IMG/VR virus record: IMGVR_UViG_3300032069_000017
Coordinates: 1-51,251 of that record
Source of the DNA: a virus
DNA: 51,251 bases
Reading direction: 5' to 3' (one strand)
Made by a program: the position numbers and the translations under genes. Under the pieces are notes generated by a model. That model was given only the letters and a program-made list of their open reading frames with translations, searched no databases and was not told where the DNA came from. The first letter of the stretch is position 1, and each line of letters starts with the position of its first letter. This document shows, in pieces, positions 1 through 48,798 of this stretch.

Positions 1-127
1 ATCACTACCGAAGGAACAGGCAAATACATACTCATCACTGACAACCGTATCTTTTTAGGTTCAGCATCTCCAGAAGACACACCTGACATCTTTTTTAACG
101 TTGGGGGAAGTCACACAATGACTATGG
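1..127. repeat. 127-bp terminal overlap
   Basis: Bases 1-127 are identical to 51125-51251 and to 10111-10237. A length of exactly 127 is a common assembler k-mer size. The match to 10237 ends at base 128 (G here, T at 10238), so the window begins one k-mer before a branch. It is more likely an assembly overlap than a biological terminal repeat. Confidence 0.9.
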
Positions 128-372
128 GGGGTTTAGGTGGTGGAGCAGCAATTGATTTTAAAGATACTGCTAACAAGAGACGAGTGAGACTTGACATAAA
201 CAGCAGTGCCATCAAAACTTACAAGACAGACGAAACTGAATTGGGCGGAATAGTCGCTGGTTCAGCGCAAGACCGTCCATGCCTCAAATTCTGGGATGTA
301 ACTAAAAGTGCGTTCTATTACGCTTATCTTGACAACGGTGCATGGGTAATTGCTAACGCTCCACCAACATAG
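1..372 (+). CDS. Tail spike, C-terminal part (continues from 50264-51251)
   Basis: The frame is open from base 1 and ends at the TAG at 370-372, so this is the 3' end of a gene. Bases 1-127 repeat 51125-51251, and the gene begun at 50264 runs through that overlap in frame, giving about 410 residues. The C-terminal portion resembles the end of the spike encoded at 9265-10482. The two are identical up to base 127 and then diverge progressively toward the stop. Such variable ends usually face the receptor, but that role is inferred. Which N-terminus it truly belongs to (50264 or 9265) depends on how the repeat is resolved. Confidence 0.8.
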   Translation: MTTEGTGKYILITDNRIFLGSASPEDTPDIFFNVGGSHTMTMGGLGGGAAIDFKDTANKRRVRLDINSSAIKTYKTDETELGGIVAGSAQDRPCLKFWDVTKSAFYYAYLDNGAWVIANAPPT

Positions 373-382
373 GTGATCATTA

Positions 383-1240
383 ATGGATAAGGCTGTCTTA
401 GGCTACTGTCGTCTCGGATACTTTCGCTTAGGAGTCTTCGACAATACTTGGGATGAACTTGTAAGAACAGTGGAAGGCTCTGGCGCAGTAAGTCTTGATG
501 CTACACGCTTTCGTTTGATGCTGTTTGGAAGAGACGCAACAACTGGATGGTATGAAAAAGCGTATGAAGAAACTGCTATTGAAATCATAGTTTTAACTAA
601 AGCATCTCAGCAATTAGCTTTGAAATGTGGAACCTACGTTATAGGAGACGTATTAGGCTTAACCGTTGATGTTCTCAGAGAAGGCGATAGACTTCGTGTG
701 GGCAACAAATATTACGAGGTTAAAACTGTTAATGAACACTATTTAGGCGACAGTTTTTGTCGTAGAGACTGTGAACTGAGACTTTTGCCTCTTGAATACT
801 TAGTTGGTGACACCTATACGGACAGTGTAGTGGAGGATGCACGGTATAGAATGAAAGTGTTTCTTGAAACCTATTTGGACAGTGCTACTTTACCAAATTT
901 CATTGTTGCTTATGAAAACGCTGATTATCCAATGGTTCGAGTGTTCACTGATAAAGTGGTTGACTTAATATTTTGTGTAGGAACACCTGACAGCACAGCT
1001 TTACCGATTGGCGTAGGCTATGAAGAGAAAGTGCCTATCACTATCTGGTGTGTTGACAAAAGCAACATTTCAGGAACCAAACTGCGTTGGAAAGCTGAAA
1101 CAGAGTTAAGACATATTACTGAAACTTATCCTACTGGTTCACTGCGAACTTTTGAACGTTTAAGCGATAATGAAAAGAATTTGGGAAGCACGGTTCTTTA
1201 CTCAGTGAATTATGTCATGCGATATAAGAGGTATGCTTAA
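383..1240 (+). CDS. Putative tail completion/terminator protein (type A)
   Basis: A 285-residue protein directly after the spike gene. The N-terminus has repeated LGxxxLG-like turns. The C-terminal half has the pattern VPITIW, then a Lys-rich helix with KAETELRHI, ending in β-like segments. The counterpart at 10502 (VRITIY, then KVKTEIDRIL) occupies the same position in the type B module. Location between spike and tube, plus this pattern, suggests a tail terminator or neck protein. It is about 100 residues longer than the type B partner, so it may carry an extra N-terminal domain. No catalytic motif is seen. Its stop overlaps the next start (TAATG). Confidence 0.55.
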   Translation: MDKAVLGYCRLGYFRLGVFDNTWDELVRTVEGSGAVSLDATRFRLMLFGRDATTGWYEKAYEETAIEIIVLTKASQQLALKCGTYVIGDVLGLTVDVLREGDRLRVGNKYYEVKTVNEHYLGDSFCRRDCELRLLPLEYLVGDTYTDSVVEDARYRMKVFLETYLDSATLPNFIVAYENADYPMVRVFTDKVVDLIFCVGTPDSTALPIGVGYEEKVPITIWCVDKSNISGTKLRWKAETELRHITETYPTGSLRTFERLSDNEKNLGSTVLYSVNYVMRYKRYA

Positions 1241-1434
1241 TGAAAACAGAAGTTAGAGACGGCAAAACCATAACCGTATTCGACAACGTGGAAGAAATGA
1301 AGTGGCACTATCACGCGAGACTATGCAGAAACTCTGCAGACACTTTAGCTCTGTTTATGGTTAACATTCAAGACGTAAAAGAGGCAAATAAATGGCTAAA
1401 AACATTAGATAACCAGTATGAGGTGAAAACGTGA
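1240..1434 (+). CDS. Small hypothetical protein
   Basis: A 64-residue protein with many charged and aromatic residues and no recognised motif. It starts at the ATG overlapping the previous stop and overlaps the next gene's GTG start (GTGA), so it is probably translationally coupled within the tail operon. The type B module has no counterpart. Confidence 0.6.
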   Translation: MKTEVRDGKTITVFDNVEEMKWHYHARLCRNSADTLALFMVNIQDVKEANKWLKTLDNQYEVKT

Positions 1435-1919
1435 CTTTAACACAAGTTAAAACCGAGAAGGTTCAAGGACGCATCAGCAACGTGCATATTGGTTATGATG
1501 CTACGCATGGAGTTGACATTACAAGCGGAATCCTCAGTTTTGAATACAACCGCATCCATGACGCAATACGCAATAAACCCCCAACCGCTGCAACCTCAGC
1601 AACCATAAATTTGCAGCAACCTAGCTTCTTTAATTGGAAGTTGACGTTTCTAAGCGATTGTAGAATAGCCTTTTTTGCTACTGACGTTCAAGTGGCTGCG
1701 GGCAACCAATATGCACTCGTAGACAATGGCTTTTCTAATAAGATAGAATATTTCAAAGTAATCATGGCTATTGAAGATGGCTCTGGAAATCCTAAAACTC
1801 GGACTTACACGATAACAAACGGTTACTGCTTAAGAAATAATGCACGTATCGGCAATGATGATGATGCTCAATATGTGTATGAAGGCGAAGCAGAATACAT
1901 CAGCTATGCAGATACTTAG
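1431..1919 (+). CDS. Putative tail tube protein (type A)
   Basis: A 162-residue, β-rich, weakly charged protein with a GTG start overlapping the previous stop. The second half has the YFKV segment, a central turn with Gly, then a closing segment rich in Tyr and Glu. The same arrangement occurs in the protein at 11064-11519, which lies at the same place in the second module. Size and position fit a tail tube subunit. There is no decisive motif, so this rests on synteny and fold-like pattern. Head-tail joining protein is the main alternative. Confidence 0.5.
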   Translation: MTLTQVKTEKVQGRISNVHIGYDATHGVDITSGILSFEYNRIHDAIRNKPPTAATSATINLQQPSFFNWKLTFLSDCRIAFFATDVQVAAGNQYALVDNGFSNKIEYFKVIMAIEDGSGNPKTRTYTITNGYCLRNNARIGNDDDAQYVYEGEAEYISYADT

Positions 1920-1933
1920 GGGGATGGTGAAAC

Positions 1934-2290
1934 ATGAGTTTGCGTTATGACAACACCACTGTCAAACAACTTATTGACCTTCCTAAACTGATTGAAACTG
2001 TATCGAAAGAATTGTTAGAGGAAAAGACTGAGGAAATGGTTTTAGTAGCTAAAGGCTTATGCCCGGTTCAAACTGGAACACTTCAGAAAACCATTAGGAA
2101 AGAGAGGTCGGGCAATAACATTCTTGTGAGGGCTGGGGGTTTCTATGTTAATCCCCGTTCAAAACGGATATGTGATTATGCTGTGATAGTGGAAATGAAG
2201 ACGGGGTTCATGCGGAGTGCATGGGCTTATGTTTCAAAGGGAATTGAAGAGGAAATCCAAAACCGTGTAAAGGAGAAATCTGGGCAATGA
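1934..2290 (+). CDS. HK97 gp10-like tail completion protein
   Basis: A 118-residue protein with the hallmark of the HK97 gp10/phage minor tail family: a helical N-terminus, then CPVQTGTLQKTI near residues 44-55, a central RAGG, then YAVIVEMKTGFMRSA and a terminal helix. Family members act at the head-tail junction or as tail terminators. It sits between the putative tube and tape-measure genes and its stop overlaps the next ATG (ATGA). No equivalent is visible in the type B module. Confidence 0.75.
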   Translation: MSLRYDNTTVKQLIDLPKLIETVSKELLEEKTEEMVLVAKGLCPVQTGTLQKTIRKERSGNNILVRAGGFYVNPRSKRICDYAVIVEMKTGFMRSAWAYVSKGIEEEIQNRVKEKSGQ

Positions 2291-2595
2291 GTGAAATGCA
2301 TGATGTCACTTTTAACATTGAATTAGACCTTTCGCAAACTGTGAGTCAGATACGCCAATATGAAATGTTGCTTTATCGTAGTTTAGCTTTAGCGCAACGT
2401 CTCGGGCTTCCAGAAAACATTCAACAACAAATTGCCGAGATTCAACGGTTGACTATGACTATTAGACTGTGCCATACAGCCCTGATATTGCTAGAATCGG
2501 CAAGTGGCCCGGTTGGGTGGGCATTGGCTCTTGTTGCTGCTGGAGGTGCCGCTGTATCAGTCGTTGATTATTTTGATGCGAGCAGGGGAAAATAA
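2287..2595 (+). CDS. Very short tape-measure-like protein (type A)
   Basis: A 102-residue protein: an amphipathic helix-rich N-terminus, then a hydrophobic Gly/Ala-rich C-terminus containing SGPVGWALALVAAGGAA at about residues 72-90. The GP(V/I)GW hydrophobic stretch is typical of the membrane-interacting part of siphophage tape measures, which are normally many hundreds of residues. Position after the tube gene and before the hub supports this. The type B partner at 11524 ends with GPIGWVYLAM. If it is the tape measure, the tail must be very short. Confidence 0.5.
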   Translation: MSEMHDVTFNIELDLSQTVSQIRQYEMLLYRSLALAQRLGLPENIQQQIAEIQRLTMTIRLCHTALILLESASGPVGWALALVAAGGAAVSVVDYFDASRGK

Positions 2596-2596
2596 C

Positions 2597-4381
2597 ATGG
2601 TAACATACATGGCTCTTCCGCAAGCGCAATTAACTATTGGGGGAAACGTGTATAACGTTTTAGTTTCTGCTGATGTGACTAGAAACGAAAACGGTTTTGA
2701 TGTAGCCACAATAATCGTTAATGATGAGTTAAGCCAAAATTATCCAACAAACATTGACGCGGGCAAAACTATACTGCTCGAAGTTAAAGACTCTTCAGAT
2801 GGTTCATGGACTACGCTTTTTAATGGTTTAATCCGTTTTTGTCTTCCAAACATTTCAGAGCAAGGCGAATTTTTAACGTTGAAATGTGACGGCACAGGAT
2901 ATGGACTAACAGAAACAAGTTGTAATGAAGAGTATGGAGTGGAAAGTCGCAATACCAGTTTAGACACAATCACGGAGATTATAACGGATGCAAACAAGGG
3001 AATTGGCCCAAAATATGTGAATGGCATCTTAGGCTCTGGAAGCAGTGGCTACGCTTATGATTATTCAAAAGTCGAAGCCATAGCGGGATCAATAAACTTT
3101 GTTTGCAGCCCATACCAACCATGTGACAAATTGATTAATGATTTATGCGATTTAGTCACGGCAATTAGACAAGATGTAGCATACCATCCTGATCATCAAG
3201 GCCCACACTGGATTGTTGACACAAGCGGCAATTTCAGAATGAAACTGATTGGGGTTACTCAAGCGGGGTGGACTCTCTATTATGGTGACAGTCAAGCAAA
3301 TGCTACATTGACACAAGGCATAGATTTTGACTCTTTCAATTTTGAACATCAAGATTCAGAAGCAAACTACATTTTGTATTATGGCACTTTACGCAAGCCC
3401 GCACGTGATTATTGGACTGAAGGACAGTTTGGTATTTGGGGAAAAACTGCTGCAATGGGTTTAAGTGATGAAGCCACAATAAAGAAGGTAGGCACTTCTA
3501 GTCTTAAATGTCTCAGCACTTTAGCGGATGCACAAGCCTATTATCCTTCAGGCAAAAATGCGGGTTGGGACTTCACTAAAATTGGTTCAGCAAAAAATCC
3601 GCCCACATTCAACTTTTACAGTTATGTAGGCGCACTTACTGGTGGGCAAACTGCACGTATTGGATTATACACGGATGGAAGCAACAACGTTCACATTCAT
3701 GTGCAAAATGACACTATAGGCGAGTGGTATCCTCATTCTCTAATTGTTGGGCCATATTATAAACCGCAAGAATGGCACATGGAAGGCACAATAGACTGGG
3801 CAAACATTAATTATATTCTGATATGGCATGCGTTAGCTCTTGATACGACAACGACTTACTGGGATGACATGCACTTTGAAGGGTTAATTTGCCGAGCAGC
3901 CAAAGACTCCACACTTATCGCAGCTGACAAGTTGAAACTTAAAACTATTGTGGATCAAGTGGGCAAAGATGACGTTATGACATTGGCTGACACTGGAACT
4001 ATGGCGCGTCTTTGCGCTTCAGAACTATTTTCGGCAAGAACAAAACCATTAATCGGACAAATTACAACACCCATGATTAAAGAATTGCTTCCGGGGCAAT
4101 ATCTTCACATCCACGCTAAAACTAACAGCACCCCTTCATTTAACATAAATATGGATATGCGCGTAACCAGTTTAAGGCATCATATTGACATTAAAGGATT
4201 AACAACCTCAAGCAATCTTACGAATGACTATATGAATAGTCGCGCACGTGCATCATACAAAAACTATAACACGGTAGCCAGTGCAGTAAGACCTGACTAT
4301 CAAGACCGAAGTGCCACTAGCATAAAAGCGGGAGTCGTAGATATTGATGTGCCGATTTTAGAGGTTGATTATCCAAGTTGA
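2597..4381 (+). CDS. Baseplate hub-like tail protein with one jelly-roll domain (type A)
   Basis: A 594-residue protein. The ATG at 2597 follows an AGGGG ribosome site. An upstream in-frame GTG at 2504 would overlap the previous gene by 92 nt and is less likely. Residues 1-220 look like a hub β-domain (FNGLI, then LKCDGTGYGLTE), as in gpD/gp27-type baseplate proteins. About 270-440 is an inserted lectin-like β-sandwich starting YWTEGQFGIWGK and ending with TYWDDMHFEGL, a pattern common in carbohydrate-binding modules. The C-terminus returns to hub-like sequence (LPGQYLHIHA). The homologue at 12821 shares these anchors but has two such insertions. Confidence 0.6.
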   Translation: MVTYMALPQAQLTIGGNVYNVLVSADVTRNENGFDVATIIVNDELSQNYPTNIDAGKTILLEVKDSSDGSWTTLFNGLIRFCLPNISEQGEFLTLKCDGTGYGLTETSCNEEYGVESRNTSLDTITEIITDANKGIGPKYVNGILGSGSSGYAYDYSKVEAIAGSINFVCSPYQPCDKLINDLCDLVTAIRQDVAYHPDHQGPHWIVDTSGNFRMKLIGVTQAGWTLYYGDSQANATLTQGIDFDSFNFEHQDSEANYILYYGTLRKPARDYWTEGQFGIWGKTAAMGLSDEATIKKVGTSSLKCLSTLADAQAYYPSGKNAGWDFTKIGSAKNPPTFNFYSYVGALTGGQTARIGLYTDGSNNVHIHVQNDTIGEWYPHSLIVGPYYKPQEWHMEGTIDWANINYILIWHALALDTTTTYWDDMHFEGLICRAAKDSTLIAADKLKLKTIVDQVGKDDVMTLADTGTMARLCASELFSARTKPLIGQITTPMIKELLPGQYLHIHAKTNSTPSFNINMDMRVTSLRHHIDIKGLTTSSNLTNDYMNSRARASYKNYNTVASAVRPDYQDRSATSIKAGVVDIDVPILEVDYPS

Positions 4382-4548
4382 CAAACTTTAAAGTAATTGC
4401 CCTAATTTTGGTTGTGATGGCTTTTCTAATGTATGGCACAGGTTTAACGTGGCTGTATGAGTTGCATCAGCCTCTAATCGCTTTTCTTGTTTTTTTGCCT
4501 TCAGCTTCCATGCTTGCAGTTACAGCTCTAAAGTTTTTGAGCAGTTAG
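4378..4548 (+). CDS. Small two-helix membrane protein, possible holin
   Basis: A TTG start overlaps the hub stop (TTGA), giving 56 residues. Two hydrophobic helices (about residues 5-20 and 32-50) are joined by a short loop with WLYELHQP. It is the last gene of the tail operon before the palindrome cluster. The type B module also ends with a membrane-like protein (15244). A holin role is inferred only from size, topology and place. Confidence 0.5.
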   Translation: MTNFKVIALILVVMAFLMYGTGLTWLYELHQPLIAFLVFLPSASMLAVTALKFLSS

Positions 4549-4581
4549 GCTAGGCTTTTAATGTAATAAAAGGCTACTCTT

Positions 4582-4946
4582 TACGAGATACCTCGTATTC
4601 CCTTATGTATAAGGGAGGGGGGTATCCCCCTACTCTTTCCAGTTGTGCGTGCGCACAACTAACATAGTTACGGCGTAACTATGAACCCCTACTCTCAAAA
4701 GATGAGGAACCTTCAAGTTTTTGAAAGCTTCAATTTTAACTAAGATTCTGAAAAGAAGGTTGCTATAAGCTTAGAAAGTGAGGTTTCAACCTAAAATAAG
4801 CTTCTTTCAACGTTGCCCAAGGGCAACAAATTAGTGTGTTTCAAAGTCTATGCACAGCTTCCACTCTAAATAGGTTCCCCAATATTTTGGGTGAGCTATT
4901 TTGGTTTTAGGCTTAGGCATGGCGACTCATCACAATTAATTGTGAT
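4582..4946. repeat. Cluster of about ten short palindromes in a gene-free region
   Basis: Region 4549-4963 holds no supported gene. I count these inverted repeats: 4582-4597 (TACGAG/CTCGTA), 4599-4616 (TCCCTTAT/ATAAGGGA), 4618-4630 (GGGGG/CCCCC), 4641-4660 (9-bp arms AGTTGTGCG), 4663-4683 (9-bp arms CATAGTTAC), 4712-4725 (TTCAA/TTGAA), 4781-4792 (AGGTT/AACCT), 4812-4827 (GTTGCCC/GGGCAAC), 4878-4891 (CCCAA/TTGGG) and 4929-4946 (perfect, ATCACAATTAATTGTGAT). Arms differ in sequence, so this is not one repeat family. It lies between convergent operons, so bidirectional termination, an origin or a structured RNA are all possible. Confidence 0.75.
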
Positions 4947-4963
4947 ATAGCAAATCTTAAACC

Positions 4964-5203
4964 TTACGATTGCTGAAGGCTACCCCTTCCACGACTATCA
5001 AGCAAAACTTCGCCACGTTCAAACTTAACCGCACACAAAACGACACCGTCAAACTGTTTAGAGAGCTCTTCAACGATTTGTTCACGGGATAAAAGATTAA
5101 TGTTTTCAGCTTGAATGCGATCCCTTCGACTCTGATTAAAAACAAGTTTTCGGACAGCTTGACGCTGAAGGCCCTCAGGGCTTCGTTGTCCTCTGTGAGT
5201 CAT
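4964..5203 (-). CDS. Small basic hypothetical protein
   Basis: A 79-residue protein rich in Arg and Gln in its first half, then a β-like stretch (GVVLCAVKFERGEVLL). Its ATG overlaps the stop of the gene at 5200-5349 (ATGA), which supports a real coupled gene pair. It ends next to the palindrome cluster. No family recognised. Confidence 0.5.
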   Translation of the reverse strand: MTHRGQRSPEGLQRQAVRKLVFNQSRRDRIQAENINLLSREQIVEELSKQFDGVVLCAVKFERGEVLLDSRGRGSLQQS

Positions 5204-5349
5204 GCTCTAAACATAATTGTTATGTCCATATATGCTTTTCTACATAACGAACCAATACCCATGAAGAAACACCATGCCCTTTCGACCACCATACGCTTTT
5301 CCATAGAAAACTCGAAAAAGCCCATGCCCAAAACCGAAATTAACATCAT
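5200..5349 (-). CDS. Short hypothetical protein
   Basis: A 49-residue, Met- and Phe-rich peptide with two weakly hydrophobic segments. It starts at a double ATG and ends in an ATGA overlap with the downstream gene. Its own start overlaps the stop of an even shorter frame (5346-5414, 22 residues, ATGA again), so three tiny frames may be translated in tandem. No family recognised. The overlap pattern is the main support. Confidence 0.4.
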   Translation of the reverse strand: MMLISVLGMGFFEFSMEKRMVVERAWCFFMGIGSLCRKAYMDITIMFRA

Positions 5350-5452
5350 TTTAGAGCTCTAAAGAGCTCTACAAGGCTTCCGCAAATCAGCCTTCTTTCA
5401 CGAAAACAAGCCATAATCGAGTAGAAAAACTCACTCCATAAATGACTGGGGC

Positions 5453-5466
5453 CTCATATAAAAACC
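5453..5466 (-). promoter_or_regulatory. Candidate TATA promoter for the 5414-4964 genes
   Basis: On the minus strand the sequence reads GGGTTTTTATATGAGG, an archaeal-type TATA box about 40 nt before the first short frame. The gap 5415-5550 otherwise holds nothing I can identify. Confidence 0.45.
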
Positions 5467-5550
5467 CTCGAAAATGAACCTTTTAAGGCAAAAGCTTCAC
5501 CAAAACGGTATGTTTAATTATACATCCGATATGTGTTCGATATGTAAATC

Positions 5551-5823
5551 TTACACATTAAGATATGAGGATGGAAAAGCAATTATCAAAACATGTTTAT
5601 TCCGTAAGTATTCAGCTTGGCCCAACGTCATTTCACCTTCAAACAACATGCACCTTTTCCCCGCATACTCGCTGAAGCCACTGGGCAACGAAATTTCTAA
5701 TGTGTCATACTCTCTGTTTTTTGCTTTATGTTTGTGACTTCTAATTTTGCGTATGCCTCTAAGTTGTAGAACAACACTACACTCTTGCAGTGTTGTAGAA
5801 CAACTTTCAGCTTGTTCACTCAT
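5551..5823 (-). CDS. AbrB/SpoVT-like DNA-binding protein (putative)
   Basis: A 90-residue protein. After a Cys/Ser-rich start, residues 24-58 read RKIRSHKHK, then DTLEISLPSGFSEYAGKRC, resembling the swapped-hairpin AbrB pattern (basic strand, then xSLPxxFxxxxGKxxxL). Such proteins are dimeric transcription regulators. Its ATG overlaps the methyltransferase stop (ATGA), so it is the distal gene of the minus operon. Two identical palindromic 13-mers lie inside its 5' end (5763-5804), which could be an autoregulatory site. The fold assignment is by pattern only. Confidence 0.45.
   Translation of the reverse strand: MSEQAESCSTTLQECSVVLQLRGIRKIRSHKHKAKNREYDTLEISLPSGFSEYAGKRCMLFEGEMTLGQAEYLRNKHVLIIAFPSSYLNV
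5763..5804. repeat. Two copies of palindromic GTTGTAGAACAAC
   Basis: Identical 13-bp elements at 5763-5775 and 5792-5804, start-to-start 29 bp, each an inverted repeat (GTTGT/ACAAC around AGA). They lie within the first codons of the AbrB-like gene. Dimeric regulator sites are a reasonable reading. Confidence 0.6.
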
Positions 5824-6311
5824 TCTGATCCATCCTTAGAAATTTTCATAAAACAAAACCAATAAGTCTTAGAAGCATGTTTACGACTTCCTTCATCACC
5901 TTTAGTGATTTGCCCAAAAAGAGGTTTCTGAGGAAAAAGTGATAAGATACTTGAAACCTTCACACATCTCGCGTTCCACTTGAAAATCAAAACGCCCATG
6001 GGCTTTAACACTCTGAAACATTCTCTTGCGCCTTTACTGATGTCTGATGCCCAGGTTTCAGGCTTCAAAAAACCAAAATCTCTTATGAATTTAGAGTTAG
6101 GATCAGAAGCCTTTTTCCTAATCTCATGCGGAGGATCCCAAACGATTAAGGTGAAAGTGTCATTTTCAAACTCTTTTAAATCTCTAAAATCACCAACAAC
6201 ATCAGGATTACATTCTGGGCGGTTATCCAAATAAATCGTGTTAGGCTGCTGCTTATCAAACCACATCATACGATAGCCAGCGGAAGCATCTAAAATAAAT
6301 TTCTCGCTCAT
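5820..6311 (-). CDS. Class I SAM-dependent methyltransferase, probably DNA adenine-type
   Basis: A 163-residue enzyme with a small Rossmann methyltransferase layout. Motif I is ILDASAGYRMMWF near residues 6-18, an acidic end of strand 2 is YLDNRPE, the catalytic motif IV is VWDPPHE at about 57-63, and a later FRVLKPMGVLIFKWN strand follows. DPPH is a variant of the D/N-PP-Y motif of N6-adenine and N4-cytosine methylases, and phage genomes often carry such short stand-alone forms. It probably modifies viral DNA against host nucleases. It overlaps both neighbours by ATGA within the minus operon. RNA methylation cannot be excluded. Confidence 0.7.
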   Translation of the reverse strand: MSEKFILDASAGYRMMWFDKQQPNTIYLDNRPECNPDVVGDFRDLKEFENDTFTLIVWDPPHEIRKKASDPNSKFIRDFGFLKPETWASDISKGARECFRVLKPMGVLIFKWNARCVKVSSILSLFPQKPLFGQITKGDEGSRKHASKTYWFCFMKISKDGSE

Positions 6312-6625
6312 GGAATAATTCCCCTATACTTCAGCCATGCCCTACACAACGCATCAAAATCTTCCACAGCAAAATGCGATTCCACACGATACCAGTCCCG
6401 GCTTTCAGCTTGCCGAAACACGGCCTTAGGTTCTTTAGGTTGAAAAACAATGAGATGCGCCTCTTCACCATATCGATAACTATTAGTCAAATGATCCACA
6501 CAAACCGGGCCATTATACTCAATTTTTAAACTATGGTCAACGGAACAACTGACAGTGATAGGCACTCCACGAAACACATGCTCGATATGTGCGCCTTTAT
6601 AGATTGTAGCCTCAACCATGCCCAT
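6308..6625 (-). CDS. Hypothetical protein
   Basis: A 105-residue protein of mixed composition with β-like first half (HVFRGVPITVSCSVDHSLKI) and an aromatic-rich end (WYRVESHFAVEDFDALCRAWLKYRG). Starts at 6625 or 6619 are equally possible. Its stop overlaps the methyltransferase ATG. It could be an accessory subunit for the methyltransferase, but only adjacency suggests this. Confidence 0.6.
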   Translation of the reverse strand: MGMVEATIYKGAHIEHVFRGVPITVSCSVDHSLKIEYNGPVCVDHLTNSYRYGEEAHLIVFQPKEPKAVFRQAESRDWYRVESHFAVEDFDALCRAWLKYRGIIP

Positions 6626-6731
6626 TCACCTTTTTCGCGTTGCAACTCCTACACCGGGTTGAAGGCTTACCATGCCCCCGGGGCAATGGCACACCACAAT
6701 CTTCGCAAACCCTAAAAGTCTGATGCGCCAT
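6612..6731 (-). CDS. Zinc-ribbon mini-protein
   Basis: A 39-residue frame beginning MAHQTFRVCEDCG with a second pair CRSC, i.e. Cx2C-x15-Cx2C, flanked by basic residues. It starts one base after the upstream gene's stop and overlaps the next start. Conserved spacing of four Cys and tight packing support coding. Likely nucleic-acid binding. Confidence 0.6.
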   Translation of the reverse strand: MAHQTFRVCEDCGVPLPRGHGKPSTRCRSCNAKKVNGHG

Positions 6732-6732
6732 T

Positions 6733-7191
<459 letters not shown>

Positions 7192-7293
7192 AAGTTTTTC
7201 ACCTTTGAGGCACTCGTGCATTTTTCATACAAATCGCATGTTTGGGAGCAGTTTAGGCATGTTGGTTCTAAGTTTGCTTTCACGTTTCAAACT

Positions 7294-7346
7294 TCCTACG
7301 TAGGATATATAGATAGCAAGTGTTATATAACACTTCCTACGTAGGA
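7294..7346. promoter_or_regulatory. Divergent promoter with two identical palindromic operators
   Basis: TCCTACGTAGGA occurs at 7294-7305 and 7335-7346, 41 bp apart. Between them lies AAGTGTTATATAACACTT (7318-7335), a perfect palindrome with a TATA-like core. On the plus strand the core is suitably placed for transcripts of the 7367 gene; on the minus strand CTATATATCC (7312-7303) could serve the 7191 operon. Symmetry and placement suggest a repressor that controls both directions. The rest of 7192-7366 holds no gene. Confidence 0.7.
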
Positions 7347-7366
7347 GTAGCAAGGAACTGATTAAA

Positions 7367-8101
7367 GTGGCTCACAGTTCTAAAGAATATATGCGAGACT
7401 TTCGTAAGAAACAAAGAGAAGAGGATAAGCAAAAAGAACAGTGGATCAACGAAGCCAAAGACGTTTTAACTGAGTCTTCTGTGGAATTGCTCAGAAAGGT
7501 TATTCAAGAACAAGTCGCGAAGGGGAGAAGTTTAGAGGATGCTGAAGAATTTTATAAGGGTTATGTTTCAGCTGGGATGTGGCAAGAATATTTGGATTCT
7601 AAGGGTTTAGTGGCTAACGCGGGATGGGTTAAAGGTGACGCTGAACTATGCCCTAAATTAGATACTACTCAGCTTCTTGAACGTAGCCAAAAACTGATTG
7701 AAATGAAACTTGCAAGAGACAGCGAAAGAAAAACAGATTCTACACCGAAAATAAAGGATCCGTGGCAATCGTTAGCTATGAAAAGAAGAAAAGAAGCACT
7801 CACATATAAAGCGGTTGACGTTTTAGCCAGTGTTGAAGAAACCGTTAAACACAGCAAAATCCAAACAGATCAGAAACTTCGTGATATTGCCCGGTTAATT
7901 GAGGATGTTAAAAAGTCTGATCCTGAAGGATGGGCCAAAATTCACGATAGGGTGGGAAGAAAAGACGAGTATGCTAAATCAACTGCTATGGATTTGACAG
8001 TCGGCAATCTTTACGGTAAGAGTCCTGATGAGCATGGCAAATCACCTGAGGAAATTAAGGCTATGAGAGAACAGAAAAAGAAGGATGCAGGGCATGAGTG
8101 A
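7367..8101 (+). CDS. Hypothetical helical protein
   Basis: A 244-residue, very charged, helical protein with a GTG start. N-terminal 45 residues are Lys/Glu/Arg-rich with coiled-coil character, and the C-terminus ends EQKKKDAGHE. It has a central Trp-rich patch (WQEYLDSKGLVANAGWVKG). No family recognised. It is the first gene under the operator-rich promoter, so it may be an early or regulatory product. Its stop overlaps the next ATG. Confidence 0.7.
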   Translation: MAHSSKEYMRDFRKKQREEDKQKEQWINEAKDVLTESSVELLRKVIQEQVAKGRSLEDAEEFYKGYVSAGMWQEYLDSKGLVANAGWVKGDAELCPKLDTTQLLERSQKLIEMKLARDSERKTDSTPKIKDPWQSLAMKRRKEALTYKAVDVLASVEETVKHSKIQTDQKLRDIARLIEDVKKSDPEGWAKIHDRVGRKDEYAKSTAMDLTVGNLYGKSPDEHGKSPEEIKAMREQKKKDAGHE

Positions 8102-8327
8102 AAAAAAGATTCCGATAAGTGGCCCTGATGATGTTAACATTAGAACGCATCCTTTAACAAGGCCACGAAAAGTAAAGACGGACACATTGACTAACATACC
8201 TCCTTTGTCCCTGAAGGGGTTTTCATACGTGCGTCAAACACGGTGTTTTACCTTGATGATGGGATGCTCTAAGAAAAAACCGAATCGTAGGATTCAAATA
8301 ATGGTTAAAATTAGGGGTATCATATGA
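8094..8327 (+). CDS. Hypothetical basic protein
   Basis: A 77-residue protein, very basic at both ends (RPRKVK and KKKPNRRIQ). It overlaps both neighbours by 8 and 4 nt (ATGAGTGA and ATGA), implying coupled translation. No recognised family. Confidence 0.5.
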   Translation: MSEKKIPISGPDDVNIRTHPLTRPRKVKTDTLTNIPPLSLKGFSYVRQTRCFTLMMGCSKKKPNRRIQIMVKIRGII

Positions 8328-8794
8328 TTCGAGAAACGCTTGAAAGACGCTTAGAAACGAGCAAGCTCTTAGGCCAAGGCTTCAGCAGTGGTGAAGTTGT
8401 TAAGTTTCAAACGGAGAAATGGGATGTTAGCAAGGTTACAATTTACAATGACCTAAAAAGTCTTGGATGGTTAACTCAGCTTTTAGGCTTAAATGATGTT
8501 AAAGTTAACTTCGCAAAAAGCGTGAATAGACATGAATACATGTATAAATCTTCTATGCTGGGTTATTTGACAGCTACAACTGAGAACGGTAAAATAGGCT
8601 TTTTACACATGGCGCATGAAGCACAGAATAGCCTAGATGACCTGTTAGGATTACATGGTTTAGTTGGTAAAGAATTACTTGAACCTGAACCGCCTGGCAC
8701 TCCTAAATATAGTGAAGAGGAAAAACAAGTTCTCGATAAGGCTTGTCGCATAATTAAACAGCATAGATATGAACCGAGGGAGAGTATTCATTAA
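8324..8794 (+). CDS. HTH DNA-binding protein, possibly small-terminase-like
   Basis: A 156-residue protein. Residues 8-55 form a helix-turn-helix (LLGQGFSSGEVVKFQTEKWDVSK..TIYNDLKSLGW), followed by helical regions and a Pro-rich linker (EPEPPGTPKYSEEE). The Vxx-TxYNDL form is found in sigma-like HTH regulators and also in small terminase subunits. No terminase large subunit is nearby in type A sequence, so a regulator is as likely. Confidence 0.55.
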   Translation: MIRETLERRLETSKLLGQGFSSGEVVKFQTEKWDVSKVTIYNDLKSLGWLTQLLGLNDVKVNFAKSVNRHEYMYKSSMLGYLTATTENGKIGFLHMAHEAQNSLDDLLGLHGLVGKELLEPEPPGTPKYSEEEKQVLDKACRIIKQHRYEPRESIH

Positions 8795-9105
8795 TGCAAA
8801 AAGTAAATTACGATCCAATAGTCAGCATGTTTGGAATAGACACTTTCCCGTTAAGCGTAGCTCTCCAATCAATCAACGGAATGAGCAAACCCCAAGACTT
8901 AACAATCCTGGTTAATTTAGATTTGAGAGACGGTAATGGTAAGCCTACAATCGAGTTTTTGCACAAACCTGAATCAGTAAGTTTCACTCGTCAAGTAGGC
9001 GATACAACGACTGAAAACTCAACCCTTCGCATAGTTGTCTTAGCAAATAAGAGAGTTGACAGTTTACCCATTCAACAACAAAGAACAACGAGAACATGTA
9101 GGTGA
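8794..9105 (+). CDS. Hypothetical protein
   Basis: A 103-residue protein with alternating β-like segments (TILVNLDLRDGNGKPTIEFL, STLRIVVLA). It starts at the ATG overlapping the previous stop (TAATG). No recognised motif. It precedes the short gene at 9112 and the spike. Confidence 0.55.
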   Translation: MQKVNYDPIVSMFGIDTFPLSVALQSINGMSKPQDLTILVNLDLRDGNGKPTIEFLHKPESVSFTRQVGDTTTENSTLRIVVLANKRVDSLPIQQQRTTRTCR

Positions 9106-9111
9106 AAAACA

Positions 9112-9264
9112 TTGAGGCAATTTTGGAACAGTAACGGCGAGTTAGAAATTCATTGGGACAGCAAAAACGAAATGATAGAGTATTGGATTAGGCGCAAAAG
9201 CGAATTTGACGTTGGGGGACAACAAACTATTCAGATGTTGATTGATTATCAAAAGGTGAAGTAA
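9112..9264 (+). CDS. Short hypothetical protein before the spike
   Basis: A TTG start six nt after GGTGA yields 50 residues rich in Trp and charged side chains (EIHWDSKNEMIEYWIRRKSE). Its stop touches the spike ATG, and its last codons provide the spike's GGTGA ribosome site. Position suggests a spike-associated protein or chaperone. Confidence 0.5.
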   Translation: MRQFWNSNGELEIHWDSKNEMIEYWIRRKSEFDVGGQQTIQMLIDYQKVK

Positions 9265-10482
9265 ATGCCACAATTTAGTGATGGACAAAAAATATCGGAA
9301 GCACTTGTTTGGGACCGTTTAATACAGAGTGGCCCAGCAAGTTATGTCATTTGGAAAGATGGAACACAAACAAAAGCTGAGTGTTTGCTGAAAGGCGGAA
9401 CCGACTATACTACTGGAACAGATGCAACGGTTATGCAAGCGGCAATAGACGGTTTAACCACTGGAACCATACTTGTTAAAAAAGCCACTTATTCATTATC
9501 AGTAGGCTTAATCAATCTCGCTAAAGAAATAGAAATCGTCTGTGAACCGGGAACAGTTTTTCAACCAACAGCAGCAATAAACATGATTACGTTTGATAGG
9601 GTTACCCACGTGGTTGCGGGCATAAAAAATGCGACATTAGACTTAAACAACACTGCTTCAACTGGTTTACTTTTGCTGGATAGTTGGCACACGATTAATG
9701 ATGGTTTAAAAATAATCAACGTGGGAACCAATGGTGTTGGAGTAAAAATTTATTCAACAAACAACAGTTACCTTTGCCTATCCAATTATGTTCGCTGCAG
9801 ACAAATAAAAGCTTACAGTGCACAAATAGCGGGAAGCATTGGTGTCTTAATTGATTCAGCAGGCGGAATAGCAGCGGGAACAAACAACGTTGTGGATGTT
9901 GGGTATTTAGGAGCACCATCTGTCGAAACTGGCATTAAAAATGTTGTTGGTGGCTCATCTGTTTTTCATGGAATAGTTGAAGGTTGTAAGATTGGAGCAG
10001 ACATTTCTGGAACGGCAACTCTGTTTCTCCACGAAGAAGCCAACACAACATACGGAATAATCGTTAGGACAGGAGCAAAAGTTAAAGGAATCCTTCGCTA
10101 TGCTGAAAACATCACTACCGAAGGAACAGGCAAATACATACTCATCACTGACAACCGTATCTTTTTAGGTTCAGCATCTCCAGAAGACACACCTGACATC
10201 TTTTTTAACGTTGGGGGAAGTCACACAATGACTATGGTGGGTTTAGGTGGTGGAGCAGCAATCGATTTTAAAGATACTGCTAACAAAAAACGCGTGAGAC
10301 TTGACATAAACAGCAGTGCCATCAAAACTTACAAGACAGATGAAACTGAACTTGGCGGGCTAATTGCTGGTTCCGCAGAGAACCGTCCCGTCCTTAAATT
10401 CTGGGACGTAACTGCGAACGCTTTCAAATACGCTTACATTGACAACGGAGCGTGGGTAATATCAGCTACACCGCCGACTTAA
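9265..10482 (+). CDS. Tail spike with right-handed β-helix, receptor binding (complete copy)
   Basis: A 405-residue protein. Residues 1-45 are an attachment domain (EALVWDRLIQSGPASYVIWKDG). TDATVMQAAIDGL followed by GTILVKKATYSLS is the typical entry to a pectin-lyase-type β-helix of phage spikes. A long β-helical core rich in Gly, Asn, Thr and Val runs to about residue 320, followed by a variable C-terminal domain. No catalytic residues are obvious. Bases 9566-10237 are identical to 50580-51251, so two spike genes share their core while their ends differ. The following type B tail genes start 20 bp downstream. Confidence 0.8.
   Translation: MPQFSDGQKISEALVWDRLIQSGPASYVIWKDGTQTKAECLLKGGTDYTTGTDATVMQAAIDGLTTGTILVKKATYSLSVGLINLAKEIEIVCEPGTVFQPTAAINMITFDRVTHVVAGIKNATLDLNNTASTGLLLLDSWHTINDGLKIINVGTNGVGVKIYSTNNSYLCLSNYVRCRQIKAYSAQIAGSIGVLIDSAGGIAAGTNNVVDVGYLGAPSVETGIKNVVGGSSVFHGIVEGCKIGADISGTATLFLHEEANTTYGIIVRTGAKVKGILRYAENITTEGTGKYILITDNRIFLGSASPEDTPDIFFNVGGSHTMTMVGLGGGAAIDFKDTANKKRVRLDINSSAIKTYKTDETELGGLIAGSAENRPVLKFWDVTANAFKYAYIDNGAWVISATPPT
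9566..10237 (+). repeat. 672-bp identical repeat (copy 1) in spike core
   Basis: By eye identical to 50580-51251. The bounding differences are C9565 versus G50579 and T10238 versus G128. Upstream, similarity continues with scattered differences to about 9475. Downstream it decays over the C-terminal codons. Such a profile fits recent homologous exchange. Confidence 0.85.
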
Positions 10483-10501
10483 GTAAAGTAAGTGATATTC
10501 T

Positions 10502-11062
10502 ATGGATGTTGCTCTTGCTGTCTATAATTGCTTAGTTAATGGTTGGAATAAACCACAGATTATTGATATAGCTGATTTTTTATCAGATGATTATACTGAC
10601 CCAGACTTCTTTGTTAATGATGTCTATGAACAACCTGAAAGTGGTTTACCAACTGTAACATGGAGACTAGATGAATTTGACCCTAAAAGCCCTAGCATAC
10701 AAGTGTTAATAGAAAGTTTCCCTATACGTAGTGTGTGGGTTGCTAGAGGAATATACCGGGTAGAACATAAGGTTAGAATCACTATATACCAGAAGCTTGT
10801 CCATTATAATGCTGATAGAATATCAGAGTATAAAACAAACTGGTTTAAGGTTAAGACAGAGATTGATAGAATCTTAGCTATAAATAAGTTTAGTATAACC
10901 AATATTTCTAACCTTAACTTGACTGGTGGCTGGGATGATAAGAATACTATTGCTGTTGGTAGAGGAATAAAGACTACTAAAGAACCTATAGTATGGAAGA
11001 GTGAACAGATTATTACAACGGTATATTATACTAATAAGATATTAGAAGAGGAAGTATCTTAA
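10502..11062 (+). CDS. Putative tail completion/terminator protein (type B)
   Basis: A 186-residue protein with an acidic N-terminus (DFLSDDYTDPDFFVNDVYEQ) and a C-terminal β/α segment with VRITIYQKL, then KVKTEIDRIL. Pattern and position match the C-terminal half of the protein at 383-1240. It is the first AT-rich gene after the spike. A tail terminator is the best guess. Confidence 0.55.
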   Translation: MDVALAVYNCLVNGWNKPQIIDIADFLSDDYTDPDFFVNDVYEQPESGLPTVTWRLDEFDPKSPSIQVLIESFPIRSVWVARGIYRVEHKVRITIYQKLVHYNADRISEYKTNWFKVKTEIDRILAINKFSITNISNLNLTGGWDDKNTIAVGRGIKTTKEPIVWKSEQIITTVYYTNKILEEEVS

Positions 11063-11063
11063 T

Positions 11064-11519
11064 ATGTCTTATGGTAACGTTATTATAAGACCTAAAGATA
11101 TAGAAATAGGCAGTAATGCTAATGAGCATTATCTATGGTTTGGTATAGATTCTATTAATTGGACAGATGTTACTCCTTGGGAGCATATAGAAATACCAGC
11201 AGGTCCAATGGTTCACCAACATCTTCATAGTCCCCATATAAGAGGAGAGATTAGATGCTATGATTTTGATGCTTTGTATAAAGCCTTATTTAGTACTATT
11301 ATAAATGTTAGTAATAAGACAGCTGTTAATCCAGATACTATGGCTAAATATACTGTAGACTATTTTAAAGTTAATATAGTTAATGATAAGAATGAGACTA
11401 TAGAAGTTATAATAGATGGGTTTAAAGTAGAGACTGTAGGAGTAGAAAATATTAAGTTAGGTTCAGAAGCCCTTTGGATAGTAAAGTTTTCTGCTGATAG
11501 AATAGCTTACGGAGTGTAG
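11064..11519 (+). CDS. Putative tail tube protein (type B)
   Basis: A 151-residue β-rich protein that lacks Cys-rich or catalytic motifs. It contains YFKVNIVNDKNETIEVIIDG followed by a closing strand with LWIVKFSADRIAYG, matching the layout of the protein at 1431-1919. The size and the site between completion and tape-measure-like genes fit a tail tube subunit. Confidence 0.5.
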   Translation: MSYGNVIIRPKDIEIGSNANEHYLWFGIDSINWTDVTPWEHIEIPAGPMVHQHLHSPHIRGEIRCYDFDALYKALFSTIINVSNKTAVNPDTMAKYTVDYFKVNIVNDKNETIEVIIDGFKVETVGVENIKLGSEALWIVKFSADRIAYGV

Positions 11520-11523
11520 CCTA

Positions 11524-11970
11524 ATGCCAAATCCGTGGGCAGATTTAATTACTGAATATATTGCTGACTTAAGAGCTAGAGTATATGCATTAGAAGCTAA
11601 ACAACAAGAACTTGAAGCAAGCCTTATGGGTAGACCGGAAGGAGAGAAACTAACAGAAGAAGAAATGGAATCGGAACGTGTAAAGGCTGTTTCTACTATT
11701 AGTATGATTGGCATGGCTAGACGTTCAGTTTATGGCTATGCTATGCTTCTAGATAGTCTGGGACTACCTAAAGACCAGAGAGAAATGATTAGACAAGTAG
11801 AAGCTAGTATTACTGCTATGATGAGGCTTATGCAAGCAGTTAGAGCAACAGAACTTGCTATACAAGCATTTGAAGCTGGTATGGGTCCAATAGGATGGGT
11901 GTACTTAGCTATGTCTGGTGGTATGTATGCTGCTACTATTATGTATGGAAGTAAAACATTAGGGGGTTAA
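11524..11970 (+). CDS. Short tape-measure-like protein (type B)
   Basis: A 148-residue protein: an N-terminal coiled coil (residues about 10-60, rich in Glu/Lys/Gln), a second helical pair, and a hydrophobic end GPIGWVYLAMSGGMYAATIM. It is the counterpart of 2287-2595. Helix plus GP(I/V)GW membrane segment is typical of tape measures, but at a fraction of usual length. Its GGGGGT tail overlaps the ribosome site of the next frame. Confidence 0.5.
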   Translation: MPNPWADLITEYIADLRARVYALEAKQQELEASLMGRPEGEKLTEEEMESERVKAVSTISMIGMARRSVYGYAMLLDSLGLPKDQREMIRQVEASITAMMRLMQAVRATELAIQAFEAGMGPIGWVYLAMSGGMYAATIMYGSKTLGG

Positions 11971-11974
11971 AGCA

Positions 11975-12175
11975 ATAACTGATTACTATAGGACAATAAT
12001 AGATTATATAGGTGAATTAGATAATAGATTAAAAATAGCTAATTTTTATAAAATTTTTACTGAAATAATAGAATTAAAGGATAGAAAGTTTAAGCTATGG
12101 AACTGGTTTAGGCTTCATTTAAAATATAAGTACAAAGAGCATCCTGAAGAATCTACTGGTAAGAGTGGTGGTTAG
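11975..12175 (+). CDS. Two-repeat tail-module protein with apparent ATA start
   Basis: The frame encodes 66 residues (ITDYYRTIIDYIGELDNRL..., ending KYKEHPEESTGKSGG) and is clearly related to the next protein by its IDYIGELD repeat and EHP...KSG ending. There is no ATG, GTG or TTG in frame. The only early codon with a ribosome site is the ATA at 11975, eight bases after GGGGGT. Alternatives are a +1 shift from the previous gene at its run of five G, or a lost base in the assembly. Confidence 0.55.
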   Translation: MTDYYRTIIDYIGELDNRLKIANFYKIFTEIIELKDRKFKLWNWFRLHLKYKYKEHPEESTGKSGG

Positions 12176-37426: not shown

Positions 37427-38608
37427 ATGCAATTTAATAAGAAGCTCCTAGAAGCTAAACCAGAGAGTGAAGAAGTAAAGGAATTTATAAAGCGTACTAG
37501 TACAGAGTATCATCCATTTGTTGACAAGTGGATAAAGAACTATGACAAAGCACTAAAGGAAGGCGAAATTGAAATAGGTGCTTTACGTGGTCAGACTGTG
37601 GCTGATGCTGTTGCCGCTGGCGGTGGAATGCAGGTTTATGCTACACTAGAAATCTTTAACGCTGTCATTAGAGGTTTTACTAGATATATGGATGACAGTT
37701 TCGTACGTAAGTATGTAACTGATTCCGTTATCTTTAAGATACCTAAGACAGAATATAGAGAACTAGTTGGTAGTATAAGTGCTGGAGAACTACCACATAC
37801 AGAGAAAATGATTGACTATGCTACTGTTGATTTGTCTACTCCAGAATCAGAACGTGGTGGCAAGGTAACTTGGACACGTTCATTGCTAGAGGATGTAACC
37901 TTTGACGTTCAGGCAGAAATGGCTGAAGGTCTAGGTCATGCTATAGCATATAAGATTACGAATGATATACTTACTGCTTTACTAGCAGTTCCAGTTTTGG
38001 CTATGCCTAAGAATGCTAAGGTAACTATTAGTTCTCCAATTACATGGGACCAGTTCCTAGATGTGATTGGGGCAGTAGATACCGGTGTAACAGACTATAC
38101 TATTACTATGACTGCTGGTGCTGACAATGCGGTTCCAAGCGACATTGGCAAGATGGTTAAGGACGACGGTGTTGAAATTGGTCCACTAGTATCATTTACT
38201 CGTGGGTCAAATCCAGCGGTATGGGTGGTTGCAACTAGAGCAACAGTAGCTAATGCTAGTGCTATGACTATTACTGGTGGAACAGGTTCAGGTACTTCCG
38301 CCTCAAGTGTAAAGAACGCCGGTGTGAGGACTTATGGTCCGGCTGACTTCTGTTTGGTAAGTCCAGATGTTTACTGGCAACTGTTGAACATCATACAGAT
38401 GACTAACGTCCTATATGAAGGTTCTACAGACCCAGTAAATAAAGGAGTTATTAAACTAGCTTTAGGCACAAGTATTGTTAAGCAGTCATTGCTTCCAGCA
38501 GGAACTGTAATTGCTCTTAACAGTGAAAAGGCTATAGCTCTGGTTACTAGACGAGCATTAAAGATAGAACCAGTATTATTCCCAGTAAATAGAGGTTATA
38601 TAGTATGA
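37427..38608 (+). CDS. Major capsid protein, HK97 fold (main part)
   Basis: A 393-residue protein. The N-terminal arm is charged and helical, then β/α core (FKIPKTEYRELVGSISAGEL, VTWTRSLLEDVTFDVQ, a spine-like helix with LGHAIAYKITNDIL). A β-rich insertion at about 215-290 (TITMTAGADNAVP ... AMTITGGTGSGTS) looks like an added surface domain. The end LVTRRALKIEPVLFPVNRG normally continues into a last strand pair; that part is found after the HNH gene at 38975-39079. Order with terminase, portal and protease confirms the identity. Confidence 0.8.
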   Translation: MQFNKKLLEAKPESEEVKEFIKRTSTEYHPFVDKWIKNYDKALKEGEIEIGALRGQTVADAVAAGGGMQVYATLEIFNAVIRGFTRYMDDSFVRKYVTDSVIFKIPKTEYRELVGSISAGELPHTEKMIDYATVDLSTPESERGGKVTWTRSLLEDVTFDVQAEMAEGLGHAIAYKITNDILTALLAVPVLAMPKNAKVTISSPITWDQFLDVIGAVDTGVTDYTITMTAGADNAVPSDIGKMVKDDGVEIGPLVSFTRGSNPAVWVVATRATVANASAMTITGGTGSGTSASSVKNAGVRTYGPADFCLVSPDVYWQLLNIIQMTNVLYEGSTDPVNKGVIKLALGTSIVKQSLLPAGTVIALNSEKAIALVTRRALKIEPVLFPVNRGYIV

Positions 38609-40171: not shown

Positions 40172-40521
40172 TGAACAAAAAAGAAAGAAAGAAAGAGTAT
40201 GAACGGTTATACTATTTAAAGAATAAAAAAGAAATTGATATTTATAGAAAAGATTGGTTAAAGAATATTAAGAAACAGAGGAGAAACGAAATTATTAGAT
40301 TACTTGGTAATAAGTGTATTATATGTGGGTATAAAGGACTAGCACTTCAGATAGACCATATAAATGGTGGTGGTCGTAGAGAATTTCTTAAATGTAGTAA
40401 ACGACCAGCGAGATATTATAAGAAAATTCTGGAAAGTATAAAAAGAAATGAAGGTAAGTATCAACTTTTATGTGCTAATTGTAATTGGGAGAAGAGGTAT
40501 AAGAATAATGAATATAATTGA
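40171..40521 (+). CDS. HNH endonuclease next to the terminase gene
   Basis: A 116-residue protein with LLGNKCIICGYKGLALQ, then DHINGGGRREFL and YQLLCANCNWEKR, clearly paralogous to the HNH in the capsid gene. N-terminus basic, without the extra ribbon. HNH proteins beside terminases often aid cos or headful cleavage; homing is the alternative. It overlaps the terminase start by 14 nt. Confidence 0.7.
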   Translation: MNKKERKKEYERLYYLKNKKEIDIYRKDWLKNIKKQRRNEIIRLLGNKCIICGYKGLALQIDHINGGGRREFLKCSKRPARYYKKILESIKRNEGKYQLLCANCNWEKRYKNNEYN

Positions 40522-46846: not shown

Positions 46847-47105
46847 TAACAAAATTAGTTTTATTGACTTTGGTATTGTAGAAGTTGGTGAGTCTAAAGA
46901 AGTGGCTATTACTGTAGAGAATGATAGTACCGCTTACTTAGAAAACTTAGTATTTAAATGTGAAGGTGTTAAGGTCTTAGAAGCTCCTGTAAGATTAGAC
47001 CCTAATACTTCTGGTATAGTGAAGCTATTATGGGTCCCTTCAATTAGTCTAAAGAAACCGTTAAAAGCGGAATTAAAAGTTGAAGGAATAGAAGTATATA
47101 AATAA
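46827..47105 (+). CDS. Ig-like domain protein
   Basis: A 92-residue protein overlapping the portal end by 20 nt. SFIDFGIVEVGESKEVAITVEND follows the ASH/abnormal-spindle type Ig-like pattern, and the rest is β-rich. Probably a virion surface or connector accessory protein. Confidence 0.6.
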   Translation: MKILQNNNKISFIDFGIVEVGESKEVAITVENDSTAYLENLVFKCEGVKVLEAPVRLDPNTSGIVKLLWVPSISLKKPLKAELKVEGIEVYK

Positions 47106-47122
47106 AGGAGGTATAAAAAACT

Positions 47123-47620
47123 ATGAGTTTTGGAGAAAAAGCAAAAGGATGCCTAGTTTGGAAGGTTGAAAAGTTCAAGGCTAAAGACAGCAAGGAAATC
47201 TTAGAGAAAAATGTTAAGCCGTACGAAACGGTTGAAGGTGAACATCACTGCCTGTTGAATGAGGGAATCACCAACTTGATAAACCTCATTTGTGGGCTTG
47301 GCAGTCCAACAGCGTGGAACAATGCTAACGCTAGGGTAGGCGTGGGCAACGATGGGACGGCTCCAGCGGCTACTCAAACGGGACTTCTGGGAGCTTCAAA
47401 ATTGTACAAGGGTATGAATGCTGGTTATCCGCAGATTAGTGGTCAGCAAAGCATTTTCCAAGCGGACTTTGTGAGTGGAGAAGCGGAGTGGGCTTGGCTT
47501 GAAGAAGCAATAGATAATGGTGCTACTGCGGCAATTGACTTGTGCAGGCAGAACACGAGTTTAGGCACGAAACCTGCTGGGCAAACTTGGCGTTTGACGG
47601 GCACTATAACGTGGAGTTAA
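47123..47620 (+). CDS. Virion surface or fibre-like protein in a type A island
   Basis: A 165-residue protein after GGAGG. LLNEGITNLINLICGL, then ARVGVGNDGTAPAATQTGL and ITWS at the end. This resembles the protein at 49657 (VNAGLWNRLLCKLGL, LGIGTGTVAASPTDIGLG), so the two are probably paralogues. Family members in phages are tail or fibre subunits. Codon use is type A. Confidence 0.55.
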   Translation: MSFGEKAKGCLVWKVEKFKAKDSKEILEKNVKPYETVEGEHHCLLNEGITNLINLICGLGSPTAWNNANARVGVGNDGTAPAATQTGLLGASKLYKGMNAGYPQISGQQSIFQADFVSGEAEWAWLEEAIDNGATAAIDLCRQNTSLGTKPAGQTWRLTGTITWS

Positions 47621-47687
47621 GAAGACATCATTTCTCTCATTATTTCCTATATTTCTTTCAGTTAGAGTAAACGGAGTAAGAAAAAGA

Positions 47688-48797: not shown

Positions 48798-48798
48798 A

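Follow-up and report, generated by a model that had tools for sequence, protein, structure and literature searches.

A probable ten-kilobase archaeal satellite with its own spike, neck and tail and no recognised capsid gene, joined to a virus of different signature in a 51-kb record

The IMG/VR virus record IMGVR_UViG_3300032069_000017 (51,251 bp, analysed here over its full length as the window) is written as one circular virus, and raises the question of what its first ten kilobases are. Positions 128-10237 (hereafter A) hold spike, neck and tail genes with no head genes, and are followed by a virus at 10238-51251 (hereafter B); a first-pass annotation of the sequence had proposed that A is a satellite encoding its own tail and spike and no capsid, and that B-like capsid genes might be its partners. 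We consider it probable that A is a circular replicon of about 10.1 kb separate from B, and that it belongs to a loose group of satellites of about 10-11.5 kb in Bathyarchaeia. Judged from gene content, members of this group appear to lack capsid and portal genes and to encode a receptor-binding spike and a neck of their own, with a complete short tail predicted in A and in a second circle, L009.

An identical 127-nt sequence is present at 1-127, 10111-10237 and 51125-51251 of the window, and extends to a true repeat (R) within the spike genes, 672 nt in length and 100% identical between its A copy (9566-10237, plus strand) and its B copy (50580-51251). Outside R the similarity fades from about 90% to none over about 140 nt leftward and 245 nt rightward. 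A and B diverge directly after R, the first differing bases being G128 and T10238, and both record ends coincide with the last 127-mer ahead of this divergence. The terminal 127-mer at 1-127 is thus the last 127 nt of R and an assembler k-mer overlap rather than a biological terminal repeat; an unrelated complete record, G001, likewise has a 127-nt terminal overlap. Record ends of this kind are what a de Bruijn vertex with k=127 leaves behind, with the record following the path A-R-B-R through a figure-of-eight graph, and given that they sit on a branching k-mer, the A-B join holds no linkage information. On paper, 128-10237 closes as a circle of 10,110 bp and 10238-51251 as one of 41,014 bp, and the record is most likely a graph walk through two replicons that were fused only because their common 672 bp stayed unresolved during assembly. 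Since both ends of A enter R, A is either a circle or inserted in B and nothing else, and its interpretation as a simple piece of a larger virus was dropped for that reason. The appearance of a complete 51-kb circular virus is most likely an artefact of two loops with 672 bp in common and an end repeat that is a k-mer. As printed, the record crosses two spike genes: the plus-strand spike open reading frame (ORF) at 9265-10482 is a chimera joining an A 5' part (9265-10237) to a B 3' part (10238-10482), and the spike of A itself is reconstructed as 9265-10237 followed by 128-372.

Were A to exist only inside B, a single circular virus of 51,124 bp with two spikes, two tail sets and a crossover at R would result, which matches the record as written and is compatible with both chimeric spike ORFs being open across R. 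By contrast, the composition-normalised tetranucleotide usage of A correlated at r 0.07-0.26 with parts of B and at 0.70-0.81 with G001 and G002, two complete tailed archaeal viruses. All 2-kb slices of A before R gave r 0.53-0.71 to G001 and G002 combined and -0.04 to 0.18 to B, and when the signature was followed in 2-kb steps it remained A-type as far as R and then flipped sharply to B-type. Two unrelated signatures that change abruptly at R, a record that ends on a graph branch point with no linkage information in the join, and the occurrence of a similar element without any B (L009, below) make such a cointegrate unlikely. The signature of R itself was A-type (r 0.56, versus 0.12 for B), a direction that points to B as the probable recipient of a spike core from an A-type source; because no base differs within R, this transfer would have been recent. 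The first-pass annotation had already noticed the spike core common to A and B as well as A-type islands in B. Such an island was recovered at 46128-49127, upstream of the B spike gene and spanning the genes at 46827-48797, with an A/G001-type signature reaching r 0.56.

The tail genes of A lie on the plus strand in a compact block. A neck protein (383-1240), in which a stopper domain is fused to a tail-terminator domain, is homologous to separate genes of G001 and G002 and to a fused protein of the integrated element L049 (39% over its length, 2e-62). It is followed by a small conserved gene of 64 aa (1240-1434; 70% identity to G001, 54% to G002), the tail tube (1431-1919; amino acid identity of 86-88% to G001/G002 and 82% to L009), a tail completion or Neck1 protein (1934-2290; PHROG_5, 5.7e-5; 37% to G002), a very short tape-measure-like protein of 102 aa (2287-2595; positional homologs in G001, G002, L009 and B) and a tail hub of 595 aa (2594-4381; 75% to the G001 hub, with a profile match of 99.5% to the B hub). 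The spike N-terminus is homologous to that of the G002 spike (33% over 108 aa, 1.7e-6). A tblastn search of phages with the hub returned nothing, and sequence searches of the PDB gave chance hits or none. AlphaFold models were of low confidence (pLDDT, the predicted local distance difference test, 43-53) and served as support only, with no Foldseek match passing E 0.001; at that level the modelled neck protein resembled the T1 stopper and terminator, phage necks and lambda gpU, and the modelled tube resembled Hcp and tail tubes including that of HFTV1. Omega for the tube was 0.10-0.13 between A and the complete viruses and 0.07 between the complete viruses, and was 0.26 for the hub. The low tube value indicates strong purifying selection and hence a tail that has been kept functional.

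No major capsid protein (MCP), portal, large terminase (TerL) or polymerase was found in A by ORF inspection or with PHROGs. The only ORFs of A exceeding 300 aa are the hub and the spike, and there is no room for a portal, an MCP or a TerL. PHROGs does find heads in this group, as shown by the positive control G001 (MCP 8.6e-16, TerL 1.4e-38), although PHROG_2 is unreliable for judging TerL absence given that the G002-type TerL falls in PHROG_38. No reading-frame decay was seen in A, and neither an integrase nor att sites were found in A or L009. The gene list of the first-pass annotation therefore stood in both halves: the spike, the neck protein, tube, completion protein, mini tape measure, hub and a methyltransferase are present, and capsid, portal, TerL and polymerase were not found.

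Relatives of the A hub and tube occur in G001 (27,676 bp, circular, 27,549 bp net) and G002 (34,293 bp with nearly matching ends, about 34.0 kb). The common order is spike (in G002), stopper, terminator, small gene, tube, a completion or MuF-like gene, mini tape measure and hub, and in both viruses this A-type block adjoins capsid, portal and terminase genes on one molecule; in G001 these comprise TerL (PHROG_2, 1.4e-38), portal, a head protease (1.6e-14) and MCP (8.6e-16). The tubes of G001 and G002 are 86% identical and their adaptors are related, while no BLASTP match was found between their MCP, TerL or portal proteins. A common tube with unrelated heads indicates that this tail block is compatible with more than one kind of head. 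A thus shares with these viruses the spike-neck-tube-tape measure-hub block and the oligonucleotide signature, and differs in that they hold TerL, portal, MCP and adaptor in one genome of 27.5 or about 34 kb.

Hub and tube identities of 75-88% and a shared signature are also what would be expected if A were a transient, defective by-product derived by deletion from a G001/G002-type virus. However, the zinc-finger gene, the gene resembling a small terminase (TerS), the methyltransferase gene and the gene at 7367-8101 are not in G001 or G002 and are in part shared with L009 and L049, the gene order after the hub is common to A and L009, and the reading frames show no decay; L009 also hints that the element recurs at distant sites. 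We regard the derivative as a very improbable account of A.

Scanning 84,980 genomes with a tube profile gave one further locus, L009, an 11,280-bp contig of a Bathyarchaeota metagenome-assembled genome (MAG) whose 141-nt exact end overlap (probably the k of another assembler) closes it to a circle of 11,139 bp. It carries the spike-neck-tube-tape measure-hub block, the antisense gene for a small protein ending in ...DSRGRG... and the A-type zinc finger, with no head gene recognised by PHROGs or in its ORF list, and its only ORFs above 300 aa encode the hub, the spike and a helicase-like protein; a tblastn search of phages and plasmids with the latter returned nothing. In neither circle, then, were MCP, portal or TerL genes for a complete virion recognised. 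The first-pass annotation had named constant contiguity with capsid and terminase genes as fatal to the satellite idea; the tail block does adjoin such genes in G001 and G002, and L009 is a counter-example. The two circles differ in hub type and in the genes from tube to tape measure, A having a G001-type hub and a G002-type completion protein and L009 the reverse, a swap which indicates that the tail block has been shuffled among elements and viruses. In L009 the spike is fused to the stopper (4988-6730), and a spike, stopper and terminator form one protein in the integrated locus L050 (9037-10917); these fusions suggest that the spike sits at the neck.

With a complete tail set and no head, A and L009 might each be a segment of a bipartite viral genome, complemented by another circle with the head genes. 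The complete relatives G001 and G002, however, are single molecules with heads, and no head-only circle was seen, though no systematic search for such circles was made. The MAG of L009 holds instead an ordinary head-tailed provirus (G003:C181, 9400-40600, comprising L020, L017 and L018), which is a candidate helper. A bipartite genome therefore seems very unlikely to us.

More loci were obtained by scanning 257 Bathyarchaeia genomes with a profile of the neck terminator. L049 (3258-13453) is an integrated element bounded by perfect 20-bp direct repeats 10,176 bp apart, with an integrase, a fused stopper-terminator, a spike, a probable TerS, a TerL (73% to that of G002) and a protease-like protein; it has neither tube nor hub, MCP and portal were not recognised in it, and it looks like a second satellite type. 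L050 spans about 11.5 kb between 15-bp repeats and encodes an integrase and the triple fusion described above, with no recognisable head genes. In L048 an integrase adjoins the stopper-terminator gene on a 1.72-Mb chromosome contig. Related proviruses that do have heads were also present (L051, L053 and C181); in L053, a provirus-like contig, the two ORFs at 4838-5737 and 8963-9709, on opposite strands, both resemble the G001 MCP. These elements are delimited in different ways: L009 is a closed circle, L049 is bounded by its repeats, and A is a circle by graph logic only.

L049 also bears on packaging. The helix-turn-helix protein encoded at 8324-8794 (plus strand) of A matches L049 8925-9356 (31%, 1e-14), which lies directly upstream of TerL. 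This family occurs in 19 of the 257 Bathyarchaeia genomes and directly precedes TerL in L049, L059 and L061, and a profile test of the A protein against the small terminases of G001 and G002 gave no match. By homology and gene position, 8324-8794 is a probable small terminase, present in A without a large one. Such a protein matters for the proposal that A is an archaeal tailocin carried on a plasmid, in which tails without heads would serve as weapons. A tail without a head, with tube and hub under selection, would fit a tailocin, and the head is absent in both. By contrast, A retains the neck pieces that join a tail to a head (stopper, terminator and completion proteins) together with the probable TerS, its tape measure of about 100 aa implies a very short tube, and in its integrated relative L049 TerL and a protease-like protein occur in the absence of tube and hub. 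We consider a tailocin highly improbable.

We therefore return to a satellite. Its absent parts extend as far as the adaptor and its retained ones begin with spike and stopper, so that the dividing line appears to run at the head-tail joint. A would replicate as a small circle, as the assembly and L009 suggest. A co-infecting virus of G001/G002 type would provide procapsid, portal, adaptor and TerL, the TerS-like protein of A would direct packaging to A DNA in a SaPI-like manner (Staphylococcus aureus pathogenicity island), and the stopper-terminator, tube, mini tape measure, hub and spike of A would close and equip the filled head, so that the particle would bear the satellite's host-recognition parts. 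Spike and tail genes would be exchanged with co-resident viruses, and B would have gained its 672-bp core in this way, from a donor of A type. From this gene set we infer that A fits its tail to a capsid taken from a helper; the wider claim, that archaeal satellites pseudotype in this way, placing their own TerS, neck, tail and spike on helper heads and so setting which cell is entered, is put forward tentatively and with less than even confidence. A G001/G002-type virus is the more likely helper than B, because the neck of A matches those viruses and not B, and because the TerS relative accompanies a G002-type TerL. The neck and tube proteins of B showed no similarity to their A counterparts, and the relative of the A TerS lies upstream of a G002-type rather than a B-type TerL. 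The original satellite idea is thus largely supported: a capsid-less element gains from the separate signature of A and from L009, L049 and L050, and B as helper is not supported.

Several points weigh against this interpretation. A is circular by graph logic only, and a cointegrate with B would yield an identical record. PHROGs could miss MCPs that are too divergent, chiefly in L049 and L050. The TerS call rests on weak homology and position, its family does not stand beside a recognised TerL in most other loci, and the structure models are weak (pLDDT 43-53). L009 is the sole other full-tail capsid-less circle known, and it lacks a TerS-like gene just as A lacks the helicase-like gene of L009. 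Finally, the IMG/VR scans, among them a DNA pattern scan that had no hit, gave no contig near 10 kb, but close relatives of the window may have been masked in them.

SaPIs encode their own TerS, use the TerL of the helper and supply no tail. They and the classical phage-inducible chromosomal islands (PICIs) resemble A in being capsid-less and about 10-15 kb in length, and the A relatives L049 and L050 likewise have an integrase and flanking repeats; unlike them, A is archaeal and no PICI regulators were recognised in it. We know of no PICI with a spike, neck and tail set. By defining features A, which has no integrase, is not a PICI, and it is not a complete virus either. The nearest known counterparts of A, capsid-forming PICIs, encode MCP, protease, portal, connectors and the two terminases, and need a helper for tails only (PMC10690885). 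Like A, they are small elements with part of a virion whose remainder comes, in the case of A probably, from a helper; A would be their mirror image, having spike, neck and tail without MCP, portal or TerL, and neither A nor L009 has an integrase. The Mulch/Flayer satellite phages of Streptomyces also carry structural genes, and MiniFlayer encodes a tail fibre module of its own (PMC10690885). They are like A in being satellites with structural genes, and differ in encoding capsid, portal and both terminases, none of which A has except the probable TerS. The Pseudomonas satellite AH14b is packaged in a helper capsid and has a tail-assembly-protein-I homolog as its sole recognised structural gene (PMC4936722); packaging in a helper capsid is likewise proposed for A, whose structural genes AH14b lacks. 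No satellite carrying its own tail was found in the open-access literature searched. Known satellites take whole particles, or make heads and take tails, and A would do the reverse. If true, a head-borrowing satellite with its own tail, neck and spike would put host range under satellite control, and would offer viruses a direct route to new spikes, as with the 672-bp core that B bears in a form identical to that of A. For sequence collections there is a warning in that terminal repeats of k-mer length are taken as proof of completeness, given that this "complete circular" virus of 51 kb is most likely two replicons joined by an assembler.

The remaining genes of A lie between the hub and the spike. 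A hydrophobic 56-aa ORF at 4378-4548 (plus strand) encodes a small putative membrane protein. It is followed by a palindrome-rich segment (4540-4960), a candidate origin or packaging region, with 4 perfect hairpins versus 0.08 expected from shuffles. The first-pass annotation had described 4382-5550 as palindrome-rich and free of genes; the palindromes are borne out, and the absence of genes is not, since the small conserved DSRGRG gene lies within it on the minus strand (4964-5203). This gene is antisense directly after the hub in A and L009, and on the late strand in the complete viruses. Further minus-strand genes encode the DNA methyltransferase (5820-6311; PHROG_954, 1.5e-45) and the zinc-finger-like small protein (6612-6773), which is also in L009 (78% over 37 aa) and was not found in G001/G002. 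About 10 ATT units at 7106-7137, inside the minus-strand ORF 6733-7221, are read as poly-asparagine and may form a phase-variable tract. A divergent control region (7222-7366) contains the palindrome TCCTACGTAGGA twice (at 7294 and 7335), which is absent from the rest of the window. It precedes the first gene of a rightward operon (7367-8101, plus strand), encoding a highly charged protein of 244 aa (39% K/R/E/D) that is possibly the counterpart of L009 2744-3583, the homology being weak. IMG/VR scans with this protein and with the probable TerS gave no relatives. The window yielded no tRNA, and positions 1-12000 gave no Rfam match.

B (10238-51251, plus strand, a 41,014-bp circle) encodes a polymerase B and its own tail, along with MCP (37427-38608), TerL (40448-41785) and portal (45350-46846). 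An IMG/VR scan with its TerL gave no relatives. GATC is absent from all 41,014 bp of B (about 116 would be expected in its 40.3-kb unique part) and occurs 16 times in A. B also has one GGCC versus 28.6 expected, and CCGG and CTAG are in excess. These biases of B represent either extreme restriction-site avoidance or a modification signature.

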